Shown here: piece after piece, positions 13,994 through 59,211 of the stretch | Layout of the letters: every line of letters begins with the position of its first letter | Position numbering within the stretch: position 1 is the first letter of the stretch | NCBI RefSeq assembly: GCF_003670115.1 | Contig: NZ_QQTY01000003.1 | Coordinates: 434,001 to 498,000 of the forward strand | Length of the DNA: 64,000 nt | Direction of reading: 5' to 3' | From: Natronorubrum halophilum | Lineage (GTDB): Archaea; Halobacteriota; Halobacteria; Halobacteriales; Natrialbaceae | The notes under the pieces: model-generated | The model's input: only the letters and a program-made list of their open reading frames with translations | Databases searched by the model: none | Told to the model about the DNA's origin: nothing | Made by a program: the position numbers and the translations under genes

Positions 13994-14100
13994 ATTAACT
14001 TGGCTCTGTTGAAATCCTCTTCTTTAGATACTTGTCCTCGTGAAGCTACTACACACTACACGTGCTTATTGACCACACCTCCATTCCGACACCACTGAAG

Positions 14101-14224
14101 GGCCTTGTTGAAACCCTGGGTCGCTGATATTCGGTAAAGGTGCTCTCCTAGCCACTCACGACGAAAGCCGTAGAAACCAGCCTCTATACGAAACCGCAAG
14201 ATACAAGAGGGTTTCAACAGAGTC
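14101..14224. repeat. 124-bp inverted-repeat miniature element nested in the kinase element
   Basis: The left end GGCCTTGTTGAAACCCTG at 14101 faces the inverted end GAGGGTTTCAACAGAGTC at 14207-14224. These have the same terminal type as the surrounding element. No matching 8-bp flanks were found (CACTGAAG versus ACATGTAA), so it may be a remnant of an earlier insertion or recombination. Confidence 0.5.
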
Positions 14225-14372
14225 ACATGTAACTCTCTGGATATTTAAACAAATACGTTTCCACCTGTATTTATCGCTCATTGGTAGTAGAAAAGGGCAT
14301 TCGAACTGTTCCAAGTCTTCCTCAACTACCACCAAAACGACTAAGGGAGACTGGGAGGTCATGCTATTCAAT

Positions 14373-16055
14373 ATGGAGATCAGTCTTCTTGCGCATGTCC
14401 TTCTCTTTGCTATCTCTGGTGTCGCTTGCCTTGCTAGTATCCTCCGAGCACGTATGATCCAACATCCTGGGACACGGAACTGGCTCGTTGTTTTTCTTGG
14501 TTCGGTCGCTCTCTGGTGTGGTGGATATCTTGGCTACTTGCTTGCGCCGACGACGACGAGTAAACTCATGTTGTACATCATTGGGTTTGTCTTCGCGTTT
14601 GTCGCGGTCGGTGCGTGGGTGTGTTTTTGTGCGGAGTATACCGGGCGGTCACTACAGAACACGCCGTTCCGCTACCCGGCACTAGCTGTCTTTCTCTTCA
14701 TCATCGCACTCAAGATCACGAACCCGCTTCACAACCTCTACTTCACGTCGGAGTGGACAACACAGCCCTTCCCGCATCTTGCGATCAATCACCAGTTACT
14801 GTACTGGGTTGTCCTTGGGTTTTCCTACGCCGTCATTATGGTCGGGTTCTTCATGCTTGCTGAACGACTGTACTATACTGGGGCAGATAGCCGTCCACTC
14901 ATCATCCTTCTTGGAATCACGGGGGTTCCAGCACTCGCTACGATCCTTAGCCACCAGATGGAACCGCTGCTCCCCCTCATGTATGAGCCACCGGGTGTGG
15001 CGGTATTCGCTGTAGGTACACTATTTGTGTATTTTAACCGTTTTGAAGCGATCCAGCTGACCGCTGGAACGACTGAACCGGCGATCTATCTCGACCAATC
15101 GAACCGAATTCGAGACTATAACCAAGCTGCAGAAACGACTTTCCCCGCGCTCACTGACGCGGTTGGAGACTCAATCGATGTCGTGAGTTCCACGCTTGCG
15201 GGCCACATCTCCGATCCAGGTGTCGTGGCTGTTACAGAGAACGGTGGGACACGCTATTACGAGGTCTCAACGACCGCATTCGTATCTGGGGAAGTACAGA
15301 CCGGCCAATTAGTGACAATCACGGATGTCACTGATCGGGAATCCTACCGCAAGCAACTCGAACAGAAAACCGAGCAGCTCGAAGCATTAAATCGGGTTGT
15401 CCGACACGACATTCGGAACGATATGGCCGTAGTTCTCGGGTGGGCAGAATCCTTGCGAGACCATGTGGACGAAGATGGCGAAGCAGCACTCGAACATGTC
15501 CTTCAAAGTTCTAACCATGTAGTTGATCTGACTGATACTGCACGAGAATTCGTCGAATCACTCACAGATAGTGATGCTGCGGAAGTACGGTTGGTTGACT
15601 TACGCAACACCGTCGATACGGAACTCGTCAAAGTCCGGGAATCACATTCAGATGCACACTTCGAGGTCGCTGGTGAGATTCCGCAGGTTACGGTTCGGGC
15701 AAATGAGATGCTGTCATCAGTGTTTAGGAATCTCCTAGAGAACGCCGTCCGACACAACGACAAAGCAACTCCAGAGATCACAATCTCTGGGAGTATCCAT
15801 GAGGACACAGTGCAGGTACGGGTTGCCGACAATGGCCCGGGGATTCCGGATGAACAGAAAGAATCTATCTTCGGGAAAGGCGAGAAAGGAATTGATAGCC
15901 CAGGCTCTGGGATCGGATTATACCTTGTTCATACGTTAATGAACCAGTATAATGGCACTGTCTGGGCCGAAAACAACGACCCTACAGGGTCAGTATTCGT
16001 CGTGGAACTTCCAATATGTGAATCCACAGAGTTAGGTACTACAAGTAACTCTTAG
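14373..16055 (+). CDS. Membrane sensor histidine kinase (cargo of the mobile element)
   Basis: This 560-residue protein has an N-terminal region of about seven hydrophobic helices (residues 1-215, the histidine-kinase 7TM type seen in haloarchaea). A PAS-like segment (about 225-325) and a short coiled coil (QLEQKTEQLEALN) follow. Then come a HisKA phosphoacceptor box VVRHDIRNDM with the phosphorylated His, and a HATPase domain with NLLENAVRHN, VADNGPGIP and GSGIGLYLVHTLM. It should autophosphorylate and pass phosphate to a response regulator, but none is nearby. An ATG 12 bases upstream (14361) is an alternative start. A GGAGGT at 14354-14359 lies too close to 14361 and 13 bases from 14373, so it does not settle the choice. 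GC is lower than in chromosomal genes, and the gene lies inside an IS6-like element. Confidence 0.88.
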   Translation: MEISLLAHVLLFAISGVACLASILRARMIQHPGTRNWLVVFLGSVALWCGGYLGYLLAPTTTSKLMLYIIGFVFAFVAVGAWVCFCAEYTGRSLQNTPFRYPALAVFLFIIALKITNPLHNLYFTSEWTTQPFPHLAINHQLLYWVVLGFSYAVIMVGFFMLAERLYYTGADSRPLIILLGITGVPALATILSHQMEPLLPLMYEPPGVAVFAVGTLFVYFNRFEAIQLTAGTTEPAIYLDQSNRIRDYNQAAETTFPALTDAVGDSIDVVSSTLAGHISDPGVVAVTENGGTRYYEVSTTAFVSGEVQTGQLVTITDVTDRESYRKQLEQKTEQLEALNRVVRHDIRNDMAVVLGWAESLRDHVDEDGEAALEHVLQSSNHVVDLTDTAREFVESLTDSDAAEVRLVDLRNTVDTELVKVRESHSDAHFEVAGEIPQVTVRANEMLSSVFRNLLENAVRHNDKATPEITISGSIHEDTVQVRVADNGPGIPDEQKESIFGKGEKGIDSPGSGIGLYLVHTLMNQYNGTVWAENNDPTGSVFVVELPICESTELGTTSNS

Positions 16056-16111
16056 TCCCGCTTTTGGATTCGAACAGGGTCTCTAAGTTATACGCTGAAC
16101 AGGCGCAATAT

Positions 16112-16172
16112 CACGCTCTTTAGGGCGTGGATACGCGCCGCCGATTGATGCAACAATTCACCGCCTGTTGCA
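16112..16172. other. Two adjacent hairpins resembling an IS200/IS605-type right end
   Basis: CACGC/GCGTG (16112-16116 and 16125-16129) around a TCTTTAGG loop is followed by TGCAACA/TGTTGCA (16149-16155 and 16166-16172). The TTTAGGGCGTGG core resembles ends of haloarchaeal TnpB elements. No tnpB is present, so this would be a solo end. Confidence 0.3.
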
Positions 16173-16275
16173 TGGCCGGATATTCTGTTTCTATTCAAAC
16201 CCTCTTCTTCAGATATAATTTCGAATGAAACAGCGGATCGCTGAAGACTGTGAACGTACCGTTCCGGGACGTATT

Positions 16276-16533
16276 TCACTCTGAAGATTCACAGAGCGCA
16301 ATACGCACCTCATCGTTGGCAACAGTGATTATTACGACTTCTAACCCATGTCGATTAGCGATCTTCCGTATGGTTCTTGGAGCATGCTCCGGGTCAGTAG
16401 CTACGGCACCACCACTGCCCGGTAAAGCGTCAAGAATCCGTATTAAAAGCGGTTGATTCTCCCGTTTTAATCTCCCCTCACGCATAATCTCACCAACCAC
16501 CCCCGAACAATCCCGGCACAGCCGTCTCCCCAC
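16276..16533 (-). CDS. Hypothetical small protein inside the kinase element
   Basis: This is an 85-residue frame with a CRDC motif near the N terminus and a beta/alpha-like C-terminal half (EHAPRTIRKIANRHGLEVVIITVANDEVRIALCE). The same frame stays open further upstream without an ATG, reading RPTILDSSSIVGRRLCRDC. That resembles the start of a PIN-like domain (ILDSS), so the true product may be longer or have lost its start by frameshift. An ATG in a different frame at about 16601 reads into the same region for about 35 codons. No family is firmly recognised. It could be a toxin remnant or a degraded gene carried as cargo. Confidence 0.45.
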   Translation of the reverse strand: MGRRLCRDCSGVVGEIMREGRLKRENQPLLIRILDALPGSGGAVATDPEHAPRTIRKIANRHGLEVVIITVANDEVRIALCESSE

Positions 16534-16697
16534 TATTGAACTCGAATCCAGAATAGTCGGCCTCTCGGAGTTCCTGCCTCACACGCTCCCAGTCAGTCAT
16601 TAGTCGTCTAATCGAACGATACCGATAATAAGCACTTGTTCTGTACTGACCACATAGGATACAGATCTATCTCTTTCTAAGGGTTTCAACAGAGCGA

Positions 16698-52581: not shown

Positions 52582-53229
52582 GCGCACTCTCGAGAGGTGA
52601 TCCGCGGACGGTTCGATGCGAGGCGGACGAACGGAGCTACTGATCGGCAGATTCTGCGTGAGCGTTACCGAAGCGACTCGAGAACGAGGGCTGGGTCGAG
52701 CATTTGGGTGTTTAGAAATCTCGAATGTAGATGTAGCCGTCAAATAACATTGAATATGCCAATGTGCGATATTCACAATACGACCTGGCATTTTTCCGGC
52801 CACGACCTCCGAATTCTGGAAGGGATCGACTCGTCTCTTGTGGATGGGAACCACTGTCCGATCGGATTTTTCTCGCGTGTCAAGTTGGCAGCACGATCTT
52901 GCTCGAGCGAGGGCGATCAGATAGACACGGGCGTTCTCGAGAAACATGGGCTCTAAAACCGCGTTTCTCGGTCAGTTAATACAGAAACGTAACGACTGGA
53001 CCGGTGCCAGTCGTCCAAATACAGTGACGGTGAAGTCCCTTTGCCGCCGTGGCTATTGCAGTAGTTGGTAATACGGCTTTGTTGAAATGGTGTTTTTCAG
53101 AGATGTTTTAGCGTGAAACACACGCTCACTTACGTGCGAACTGAACACCTATCGATATATCTGACACACCGTGAATCGAGAGATCATCTATATATTGTTC
53201 TGAAACGTAATTATAGATGGTGAATAATT

Positions 53230-53673
53230 GTGGCCGCAACTGAACACCGTACTGACAGCGAGGAGCGCTATCGCCGTCTCATGGAAGAGGCAGTAAATGA
53301 GGGGAAGATGGAGACCATCGACGAACTCGTCGCCGATGAGTTCGTCATGTCTGTCGCAGGCGAATCAGAACCGATCCAAGGGCAAGACGGGCTGAAAGCG
53401 TATATTCAGACGTACCGTGGCGCTTTCCCTGACCTTCACCTCGAGGTCGAAGATGTCGTCGTGAACGAGGATCGCGTCAGCGCCCGGTGGACGGTGACCG
53501 GGACGCACGAGGGTAAATTAGCAGGAATCAAACCAACGGGGGCTCGCGTCACCGTCGAAGGGATGGAATTTAATCGCCTCGAAGACGGCAAATTCACCGA
53601 AGTACAGGAACTGTTCGACTCCTATAGTCTATTTCGACAGCTCGGCGTCGTCCCTGACGAACAATCTGAATAG
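53230..53673 (+). CDS. SnoaL/NTF2-like protein (ester cyclase family)
   Basis: This 147-residue protein belongs to the SnoaL-like polyketide-cyclase group of the NTF2 fold. Evidence: YRRLMEEAVNEGKMETIDELVADEFVM as the opening helices, QDGLKAYIQTYRGAFPDLHLEVEDVVVNEDRV, VTGTHEGKLAGIKPTGARVTVEGMEF and a C-terminal DSYSLFRQLGVV. Members are often called ester cyclases but act on diverse small molecules. It starts with GTG at 53230, just after an AT-rich leader. The next ATG is at codon 18 and would cut the first helix. Two paralogues lie at 57972-58415 and 60281-60733. It is cargo of the IS6-like element. Confidence 0.8.
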   Translation: MAATEHRTDSEERYRRLMEEAVNEGKMETIDELVADEFVMSVAGESEPIQGQDGLKAYIQTYRGAFPDLHLEVEDVVVNEDRVSARWTVTGTHEGKLAGIKPTGARVTVEGMEFNRLEDGKFTEVQELFDSYSLFRQLGVVPDEQSE

Positions 53674-53912
53674 ACGACGAGCGGGCACCATAGCGAACTG
53701 GTTCGTGCCCGCTTCCGTTTATCCTGAAAGATATGGCGAGAGCGAGGATGTCGTGGTGAAGCGACTGCACGCTAGCTGTGAAAGCGGCATCTGTTCCGGT
53801 CAGGTTGAACTGAAGCTGGTGCTCTGTCTACGTGCTATACTTACCGCAGAGGGTGCTGAATATATCATTCCGCGTGCATTTCAACAGAACCGAAGTGACC
53901 TTTTTATTCGAC

Positions 53913-54074
53913 CTATTCTTCAGGAATGTCGATCGAGCGGTAGATCTTCGATCGTAATTTAGATGTTTGCTCTTCTCCAATCGTCTCACTCGCTTCAAGT
54001 ACGTCTACAATTTCAACTATCGTATCGCAGAGTTATTCCGGGTTGTCGATGCGAGTTTTAGGCTCGTCTTCCAT
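53913..54074 (-). pseudogene. Small gene interrupted by a single in-frame TAA
   Basis: From ATG 54074 the frame reads MEDEPKTRIDNPE, then TAA, then continues without further stops as LCDTIVEIVDVLEASETIG and EEQTSKLRSKIYRSIDIPEE to a TAG at 53913. Total length would be 53 codons including the internal stop. Coding character (acidic, amphipathic helix) is preserved on both sides, and a TATA-like GAATATACTTG at 54096-54106 lies 22-32 bp upstream. A GAA-to-TAA change (one base) is the simplest cause. The family is not recognised. Confidence 0.45.
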
Positions 54075-54095
54075 ACGCTATCGTCTACATCAAGT

Positions 54096-54106
54096 ATATT
54101 CAACAA
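54096..54106 (-). promoter_or_regulatory. TATA-like element of the interrupted small gene
   Basis: GAATATACTTG on the minus strand is placed 22-32 bp before ATG 54074, as expected for a leaderless transcript. Confidence 0.4.
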
Positions 54107-54383
54107 GGGAGGCACCCATCCGGTGTCTCTTACCAAAAACGAGAAAATCCAACACAACAACCTGACGATTCTCGGATACGATGTTCGCAATCAGACTGCT
54201 GACTTCGTTCACTGATACAATGGAAACTTACCTATACTGACCACAGAGGATACAGAACCTATCTCGATTGCTCTGTTGAAATCCTCAATCGATGATAGGT
54301 ATTCGAAGTCGTGCTGAATACAGAGCATGAGTTCAGCACGATAGTTGTCTTTCTATTCTTGAACTATCCGGAAGAGAATGTGC

Positions 54384-54836
54384 TTATTGTTCGCTCAGCT
54401 GGCCCGATATTTCCTCAATTTGAAGTTCCCACCCTTGAATGTCCTGCATCGGTTCAGCCTCAGAGAACAGGCTTGGATACCATGCATTGTCCCCAATCGC
54501 ATCGACCACGTCAGTCCATTCATCCTCAGCAACCTGTCGAAGCGTCCCCGTCGCAATGACGCTTTGCCAGTTATGCTTTGAAACTACGTTATAGGTGGTG
54601 AAACTGGCCTTCTCGGTTTTCTTAGCGAACTTCTCCTTTTTACTCTGCTCACCAACGCGCAGAAACACGAAGAACAGCCGTGATTCCCCATCATAGCCAA
54701 ATGAAACTGGGACTCCGTACGCTTCCTCCCCGTCGGTTAGTGAAAGAACTCCAAACCCTTGATTACGCAAGAAATCGTCAATTTCTTGTTCATCCATCTG
54801 AATTCCCTGGAGTTCAGCAAGGCTTTCTGGTGGCAT
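54384..54836 (-). CDS. Pyridoxamine 5'-phosphate oxidase family protein
   Basis: This 150-residue protein has the split-barrel flavin-binding pattern of the haloarchaeal PNPOx-like group: MDEQEIDDFLRNQGFGVLSLTDGEEAYGVPVSFGYDGES, then LFFVFLRVGEQSKKEKFAKKTEKASFTTYNV and SVIATGTLRQVAEDEW. Such proteins bind FMN or F420 and reduce small molecules; true PNPOx activity is unlikely at this length. The frame is open 31 codons upstream with earlier ATGs. I chose 54836 because MPPESLAELQGIQMDEQEI is the usual start region. It lies inside the IS6-like element and has lower GC than the chromosome. Confidence 0.8.
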   Translation of the reverse strand: MPPESLAELQGIQMDEQEIDDFLRNQGFGVLSLTDGEEAYGVPVSFGYDGESRLFFVFLRVGEQSKKEKFAKKTEKASFTTYNVVSKHNWQSVIATGTLRQVAEDEWTDVVDAIGDNAWYPSLFSEAEPMQDIQGWELQIEEISGQLSEQ

Positions 54837-55131
54837 CTCTCCCGTAGGATACAACGCCAATGCATGAATCGCTTGGGGCATGAAACACTGACCACCAGCG
54901 AGACATACACCTCTGCACTGACCGATCACCAGCCTTCGCTAATCGACCTTCGGAGAATGTTGTATTCGAGCTGTGTATTCAGCACGCTGTTTGTATCAAC
55001 CGTTGAGGATTTCAACAAAGCCGGTAATACGACTTCTTCATTCAGACTCGGACGCGAAACTGATCTGTCCGATTTGGTAACTGCAGATGCGAACGTACCG
55101 ACCGTGGAGGACAGGTGACCGGATTAGGTCG

Positions 55132-57971: not shown

Positions 57972-58415
57972 CTACGCCGGCGGGAACTCGATGACCCCGA
58001 TTTGGTGGAGAAGACTTAGGTTATCCGGGAGGAACCACCGCTCGGCGATCATCCCGTCTTCGATGCGGACGAAGGCCATCTGTTGGACCTCGATCTCCCT
58101 TCCGGTCGGTTCGATCCCCCAGAGCTCTCCCGTGTGCGTCCCGCGACTCACGAGAAACATAGCAACTGTATCGCCTTCCACGATGATGTCCACGACGGTC
58201 TGGGAAACGTCGGGAAACGCATCGAGAAAGGCTTCATACGACGCTCTGATCGCCCGTCGACCCTGCTGATCGCCAAACGCGTTACGGTCGACGGCGTCCG
58301 CCGCGTACAGTTCTTCGAGCAGGTCGAGGTTCCCGTCCCCGAAGACGTCCTCCGGGATACGCCGGGCAAGTTGCTTGTTTCGCTCCTCCTGTGGCGTGAG
58401 TGATGCGTCAGTCAT
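57972..58415 (-). CDS. SnoaL/NTF2-like protein (ester cyclase family)
   Basis: This 147-residue protein is clearly related to the one at 53230-53673. It reads ARRIPEDVFGDGNLDLLEELYAADAVDRNA, IRASYEAFLDAFPDVSQTVVDIIVEGDTVAMFLVSRGTHTGELWGIEPTGREIEVQQMAFVRIEDG and NLSLLHQIGVI. The GxxPTG(R/A) motif and final LLxQxGV helix are shared. ATG 58415 gives the normal length (the frame continues upstream). The HTH-10 gene at 58561 is divergent and could regulate it. Confidence 0.83.
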   Translation of the reverse strand: MTDASLTPQEERNKQLARRIPEDVFGDGNLDLLEELYAADAVDRNAFGDQQGRRAIRASYEAFLDAFPDVSQTVVDIIVEGDTVAMFLVSRGTHTGELWGIEPTGREIEVQQMAFVRIEDGMIAERWFLPDNLSLLHQIGVIEFPPA

Positions 58416-58524
58416 GCGTGATATACTCCCCTGGTGTCGGTCGACGCGTCGGTTCGTGGATTCATTGCAACCGTGTAGAACGGAGGCGATTGATCGCCGT
58501 GAGTTCACACAGCAACATGTTTCT

Positions 58525-58532
58525 ACGTATAA
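58525..58532 (+). promoter_or_regulatory. TATA-like promoter element of the HTH-10 gene
   Basis: A CGTATAAG stretch lies 29-36 bp before ATG 58561, the spacing of a haloarchaeal TATA box. Confidence 0.45.
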
Positions 58533-58560
58533 GTCGACTCGAAGCCAACGCTCCGAACGG

Positions 58561-59211
58561 ATGCCACAGATCACGGTGAAACTCAACGGGATGGCAGTAG
58601 ACGGATGGTTAGCGGAGATCTCCACCGAGTTTCCGGACTCCGAACTCAGAATTTTGGCGACTCAGGTACGCGACGTGGACGCGCTTGTCATCCTCGAAGC
58701 GAGGACATCGTCGCCCGGTGACCTCGCCGCTCGATTCGAGAGCACGCCCGAAGTGGACTCGTTCGAGAGACTACACAGCGATGATCGGATGGTGCTGATC
58801 CGGTTTTCAACTTCGAGTACGAAATCGTTTGACCCGCTCTCCAGGTCGAAGAACATCTCGGTGTACCCGACTACGCTTCGGGACGGTTGGTTTACCGTGA
58901 CGTTGATCGCGTCACACGAACGGCTGTCGAAGTACACGGACGAGTTAGCCGCGGCCGAAATTCCGTATCGAGTTCTGTCGCTGGCCCAATCGTACGACTC
59001 GAGCGAACTTCTGACGGATCGTCAATCGGAGATCATCTCCAGGGCGGTCGAATGCGGCTATTACGAGACGCCTCGGAGCTGTACGGTCACGGAGCTATCA
59101 GCGCTCCTGGGGATCCACAAATCGGCGGCGAGCAGATTGCTCCATCGCGCCGAGAGCAGGATCATCAGGGCGTTCGTCGACGACGGAGTGAGTGGCGACG
59201 CTCGCGAGTGA
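58561..59211 (+). CDS. Bacterio-opsin activator-type HTH-10 regulator
   Basis: This 216-residue protein has a C-terminal HTH-10 domain (LTDRQSEIISRAVECGYYETPRSCTVTELSALLGIHKSAASRLLHRAESRIIRAFV). The N-terminal 150 residues form the alpha/beta sensor region (ITVKLNGMAVDGWLAEISTEFPDSELRILA, then DGWFTVTLIASHERL). The frame extends upstream, but ATG 58561 has a TATA-like element at the correct distance. It is divergent from the SnoaL-like gene at 57972, so that gene is a candidate target. It is the second HTH-10 protein of this window; the two are not close paralogues. Confidence 0.87.
   Translation: MPQITVKLNGMAVDGWLAEISTEFPDSELRILATQVRDVDALVILEARTSSPGDLAARFESTPEVDSFERLHSDDRMVLIRFSTSSTKSFDPLSRSKNISVYPTTLRDGWFTVTLIASHERLSKYTDELAAAEIPYRVLSLAQSYDSSELLTDRQSEIISRAVECGYYETPRSCTVTELSALLGIHKSAASRLLHRAESRIIRAFVDDGVSGDARE

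Follow-up and report, generated by a model that had tools for sequence, protein, structure and literature searches.

A segment at 53067-55030 of the window (the whole 64-kb stretch of DNA analysed here) holds genes between short inverted ends, and it raises the question of what kind of mobile unit this is, which transposase system its ends belong to and how its genes came to share one pair of ends. The first-pass annotation had described it as a single cassette of three genes, lacking a transposase and bearing IS6-type ends. Perfect 14-bp inverted ends, GGCTTTGTTGAAAT, lie at 53075-53088 (+) and 55009-55022 (-) and delimit an element of 1948 bp, which we call A-M-B after its three modules; directly outside them stand two exact copies of the 8-bp sequence GGTAATAC, at 53067-53074 and 55023-55030. 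Ends and direct repeats both agree in position and sequence with what had been reported. We found no transposase match among the open reading frames of the element that were tested, and the SnoaL-like and PNPOx-like genes inside the ends are present and open, with Pfam scores clearly beyond the cut-off. The earlier view of a cargo-carrying element without a transposase, inserted with an 8-bp duplication, is supported.

The agreement of the flanks is unusual for the window. Among 19 perfect 14-bp inverted pairs spaced 0.3-4 kb apart, with flank agreement scored as exact or with up to two mismatches, the 53075/55022 pair was the only one with agreeing 8-bp flanks, and no inverted pair in 30 Markov-shuffled windows had exact ones, which bears out the claim that the arrangement is not due to chance. 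Exact 8-mer agreement at this spacing occurs in the window at a rate of 1.1e-4.

For the insertion site, the query was the two flanks joined without the element, with a single GGTAATAC kept. Matches of about 65-80 bp ran across the joint in other genomes (G027, G074 and G071); the sequence at the joint is CAGTAGTTGGTAATACGGTTTCTT in G027 (L088), and the sites in G074 (L083) and G071 (L086) are alike. These related uninterrupted sites carry GGTAATAC in single copy, so that the duplication is the expected trace of insertion, as had been proposed. Of the comparison suggested at the time, the related sites were found, whereas none of 125 genomes of the family showed the exact orthologous site in its empty state. 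The outer ends, the duplication and the related uninterrupted sites can all be read directly from the DNA and, judged by sequence, A-M-B is an inserted unit. The left flank (52810-53028) has about 68% identity to IS6 transposase genes of many haloarchaea and is probably a decayed remnant of such a gene; together with the matches across the joint, this indicates that the element is embedded in repeat DNA. The insertion site (53051-53074 with 55031-55100) is part of an approximately 80-bp repeat in many haloarchaeal genomes, some of which hold several copies, and this repeat may be one end of some other mobile element.

Modules and ends within the element

Ends of this kind were sorted by subterminal sequence into four types, named R, L1, L2 and T5 (T5 for the transposase 5' side), and the three inner ends of A-M-B were kept out of the building of the end-type profiles. 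Module A (53075-53891, +) is a complete R...L1 cassette of 817 bp with two complete ends, of types that are paired in simple cassettes. Its left end (type R, 53075-53148, +; TIR GGCTTTGTTGAAAT; profile score 54 bits) also bounds the entire element on the left and has copies of 83-84% identity elsewhere in the same genome, and its right end is an inner L1 end (53826-53891, -; TIR GGTTCTGTTGAAAT; 34 bits). The cargo is a SnoaL-like gene of 147 aa (53230-53673, +; PF07366, 1.2e-35). Roughly 3 kb beyond the element the window has another SnoaL-like gene, at 57972-58625 (-; PF07366, 4.2e-32).

Module B (54269-55022) is a complete L2...L2 cassette of 754 bp. The inner, left L2 end (54270-54341, +; TIR TGCTCTGTTGAAAT, from 54269; 64 bits) has a 90% identical copy in G049, and the right one is also the outer right end of the element (54955-55022, -; TIR GGCTTTGTTGAAAT; 54 bits). 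Between them is a PNPOx-like gene of 150 aa (54384-54836, -; PF12900, 4.5e-20), whose start was taken from the Natrinema annotation; the open frame reaches 54929.

Between A and B lies module M (53892-54268), a fragment with 80-86% identical copies in G101, G075, G059 and G070. It begins with GAAGTGAC, the presumed target of A, and finishes with ATCTCGAT, the presumed target of B. Homology to the copies in G075 and G059 starts exactly at 53892, adjoining A. The small gene of M (53913-54074, -; 53 codons) is interrupted by an in-frame TAA at codon 14, and its 53-aa homologs are open in G101, G075 and G059, so the nonsense mutation noticed earlier is real. On its right, M retains an L1 end without the outer 22 bp (54229-54266, -; 22.5 bits over profile positions 23-60), and ATCTCGAT lies within this end. 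In other genomes, copies of M retain the inner portions of an L1 end, and the G075 copy those of an R end as well; by these remains, M was likely, though not certainly, once a full cassette. In G101, M adjoins a gene that by eye encodes a 2-oxoacid oxidoreductase-like subunit.

The ends of A-M-B are thus oriented + - (M) + -, which indicates that A and B are each complete, with M between them. The internal ends at 53891 (-) and 54269 (+), overlooked in the first-pass annotation, make A-M-B a composite, and its picture of one cassette holding three genes gives way to three joined modules. The complete ends of A and B and the cut end of M are plain to read, as are the copies of M elsewhere that lack A and B.

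The transposase family of the ends

An 8-bp duplication agrees with IS6 yet is not specific to it. IS6 elements, too, typically duplicate 8 bp and have ends of 14 bp (PMC7986276), but ISH1, of an IS5 subgroup, likewise duplicates 8 bp (PMC10264941), a length that A-M-B fits. The two families are told apart in this genome by what lies between the ends. Its IS6 transposase genes have the ends GGCACTGTCTAGTT (L011, whose protein matches NF033587 (IS6) with 196 bits, and L017, with an exact duplication GCCTGCAT), whereas the transposases between GGCTCTGTTGAAAY ends are of the IS5 family (NF033579, 207-220 bits; PF01609), and no match to PF13610, the Pfam family of the IS6 transposases, was found inside any GGCTCTGTTGAAAY pair of the genome. 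By eye, these transposases fit the Y-2-R-3-E-6-K pattern of IS4-like transposases. IS5 transposases lie between ends of the same kind with duplications at L126, L129, L132, L136 and L142. Close relatives are annotated as IS5, ISHxa2 or ISHla2 in plasmid records; the L136 protein is 94.5% identical to annotated ISHxa2 and 91.9% identical to the ISHla2 protein. One plasmid copy annotated as ISHxa2 (L206) has no agreeing 8-bp flanks between the detected ends, and no IS5-type transposase was confirmed in viral contigs.

Because the IS6 copies end otherwise and the transposases between GGCTCTGTTGAAAY ends are IS5, the ends belong to an IS5 system. A non-autonomous IS6-family element moved by an IS6 transposase would account for the duplication and the 14-bp ends, and the genome does hold IS6 transposase genes; this origin is already contradicted by the family of the transposases and by the ends of the IS6 copies, and we give it practically no credence. 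The IS6 label falls with it, as does the expected autonomous IS6 element with identical ends.

An intact IS5 transposase gene of 290 aa lies on the same contig (G000:C3:601961-602830; element span G000:C3:600760-602862). It adjoins a 215-aa open frame and is the only intact IS5 transposase of its type seen in the genome. Since its ends, GGCCYTGTTGAAAC, are somewhat different and it has no duplication, its action on the ends of A-M-B is uncertain.

Proposed assembly of the composite and competing explanations

The flanks of the modules are laid out as GGTAATAC-A-GAAGTGAC...ATCTCGAT-B-GGTAATAC. The inner flanks are unpaired (5 and 7 mismatches), so neither A nor B has a duplication of its own, and the other copies of M that were found lack A, are unbroken at its junction and have a GAAGTGAC-like sequence. 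This layout points to insertion of A into M and of B into M's end, followed by joint movement of all three. We consider it probable that A-M-B is a composite, without a transposase, of an IS5-family (ISHxa2/ISHla2-like) system, assembled in this way and then moved as a unit. IS5 transposases of this family would move GGCTCTGTTGAAAY-ended cassettes in trans and leave 8-bp duplications. Cassette A, with the SnoaL-like gene, would have entered M at GAAGTGAC, and cassette B, with the PNPOx-like gene, M's L1 end at ATCTCGAT, in either order. The A-M-B block would then have entered its present site at GGTAATAC as one unit, through the outer R end of A and the outer L2 end of B. We infer the IS5 transposase as the acting enzyme, and its action in trans, from this pattern. 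Against the composite we count that no second copy of A or of A-M-B was found elsewhere, plasmids included for the whole block, and that the exact orthologous empty site is missing.

That no second A-M-B is known would suit a history in which A and B were inserted separately, side by side, with the outer GGTAATAC copies matching by chance or gene conversion and no movement as a unit. The low rate of exact 8-mer agreement, the single repeat at the related uninterrupted sites and the want of a separate duplication for A or B make this very unlikely. Somewhat less improbable, though still an outside chance, is that one non-autonomous element gained three genes stepwise inside fixed ends, the internal end-like sequences being leftovers of recombination. 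Related ends are numerous on the contig and could recombine, and the occurrence of the same cargo with different ends requires some exchange of ends. However, the inner ends of A-M-B are complete, with both TIR and subterminal sequence, and are oriented as for two whole cassettes, and the match between M and other genomes breaks off precisely at A's end, which favours the joining of modules over stepwise gain.

Cargo is seen again between ends of other types. The PNPOx gene has 92% DNA identity to a gene on a plasmid of Natrinema sp. DC36, where an independent mobile copy, seen directly in the sequence, is the only gene of a 651-bp L1/R element bordered by the duplication AAGTGAGT/AAGCGAGT; here the ends are L2/L2. 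Over 151 codons the pair differs at 22 codons synonymously and at 7 nonsynonymously (dN 0.021, dS 0.297), and the dN/dS of 0.07 indicates that the cargo is maintained under purifying selection. L2/L2 ends of the B type enclose another gene in Haladaptatus halobius, with a 1-mismatch duplication. The PNPOx gene of Haladaptatus salinisoli (71% DNA identity) has no recognisable ends nearby, and that of G005 (L147, 47% aa identity) is bordered by end-like sequences whose repeats, GGCTCCGTTCGAAT / GGCTCGCCCGAAAT, have decayed; it lacks a good duplication and was not counted. Relatives of the SnoaL-like protein (up to 46% aa identity) were never seen between two ends, and a contig scan with it returned bacterial MAG homologs only (42-43% aa identity).

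Related elements and known systems

This genome has 39 GGCTYTGTTGAAAY ends at up to one mismatch and none of the reversed pattern. Exact GGCTCTGTTGAAAYCCT is present in 214 of 292 Halobacteria genomes (reversed control, 0), and GGCTCTGTTGAAAYC in 109 of 125 genomes of the same family; the ends are therefore shared well beyond this genome, as the first-pass annotation had expected. We sampled 39 convergent end pairs from the genome match lists and scored a duplication as 8 bp with at most one mismatch. Duplications were found in 24 of them, where about 0.03 would be expected at the window rate, and were present in 13/20 pairs without an IS5 transposase versus 11/19 with one; some transposase genes among the 19 are broken or fragmentary. 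One of the 13 (L140, G037:C3:1383767-1385761) has L1/L1 ends and an exact duplication GACGGACC; by eye, its main open reading frame resembles transposases of the IS110 type and may be a nested insertion. Pfam-matched cargo comprises alpha/beta hydrolases, a PQQ-repeat protein, a bile-acid-symporter-type transporter, Amphi-Trp, HalOD1, a metallo-beta-lactamase-fold protein, a methyltransferase and DUF7344. The description of the cargo as metabolic holds in part; across the family it is mixed, with sensor kinases, hydrolases, Amphi-Trp, HalOD1 and a transporter. Two relatives pair an intact IS5 transposase with passenger genes inside an exact duplication, as in a tIS: L129 (G009:C4:145501-147144), with a methyltransferase, and L142 (G042:C44:47664-50471), with a hydrolase and a regulator-like protein.

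We looked for inner ends in 30 elements whose duplications have at most one mismatch, using profiles built partly from the scanned elements and a threshold of our own choosing, in a small sample in which long elements offer more room for matches. Inner ends were present in five: A-M-B, the window's element at 14002-16696, L141, L185 and L201. All five are longer than 1.9 kb and lack an IS5 transposase; L185 and L201 are plainly multi-gene, and the gene of the second module of L141 was not identified. Small one-gene elements and transposase-bearing ones among the 30 had no inner ends. R and L2 formed the outer pair only in A-M-B and L201, both with inner ends. This pattern fits the joining of modules.

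Among known classes, A-M-B is closest to the mobile insertion cassettes (MICs), in that it has the inverted repeats of an insertion sequence family, passenger genes in place of the transposase, a duplication of 8 bp, the length also seen where such ends enclose an IS5 transposase, and proposed movement in trans. Described MICs include MIC231 of Bacillus cereus with IS231A, the composite MIC231D and mic elements with qnrD or qnrS2; movement of MIC231A1 in trans has been shown, and both composites and a modular construction have been described (PMC3913671). A-M-B differs in its IS5-type rather than IS231/IS4-type ends, its archaeal hosts and class-wide spread, its end types (R, L1, L2 and T5) and its three-module block with two complete cassettes. 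Haloarchaeal MITEs are moved in trans (PMC3119063), and ISH2 and part of ISH8A were inserted jointly under one common duplication (PMC10264941). Like these MITEs and ISH2 with ISH8, A-M-B is haloarchaeal, has no transposase and shares its ends and duplication length with an insertion sequence; unlike the MITEs, which are short and mostly non-coding, it carries cargo genes of known families and has an IS5-like partner, and its 1948 bp and two intact genes rule out that class. It shares the kind of ends and the 8-bp duplications with ISHxa2 and ISHla2 but differs in its genes and lacks a transposase. The tIS class (transposase plus passenger gene) is ruled out for the same lack of a transposase. 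As in compound transposons, two mobile units flank a segment under a single outer duplication; that class is ruled out by the dissimilar flanking units (A with R/L1 ends, B with L2/L2), which carry different cargo and no transposase.

Our search of the literature, chiefly outside subscription journals and ISfinder, yielded no account of IS5-ended cassettes with cargo genes across the haloarchaea. Haloarchaea hold many transposase-free repeats, and we tentatively raise the possibility of a class-wide haloarchaeal cassette system with IS5-type ends and a shared transposase pool, in which one-gene cassettes may swap ends and stack into units of several genes, in a manner that recalls integron cassettes to some extent but relies on transposition. 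If movement in trans holds, any cell with an ISHxa2-type transposase could move and join genes that have no mobility function of their own. This would be an ordinary route for small regulators, kinases and enzymes onto haloarchaeal plasmids, and internal ends of defined types would be a marker of the order in which multi-gene units were put together.

The window's other element, at 14002-16696, belongs to the same end family, and both elements have exact 8-bp duplications, as had been noted. It has outer R and L1 ends with the duplication ATTAACTT and is also a mosaic, in which an L2 end is found some 100 bp inward and a further R end at approximately 16190-16260. Its cargo is a histidine kinase, with 61% protein identity to one in a Haloarcula marina element that has an exact duplication GTCAAAAC, and a small protein with 39% aa identity to the sole cargo of a Natrialba magadii element (L072).
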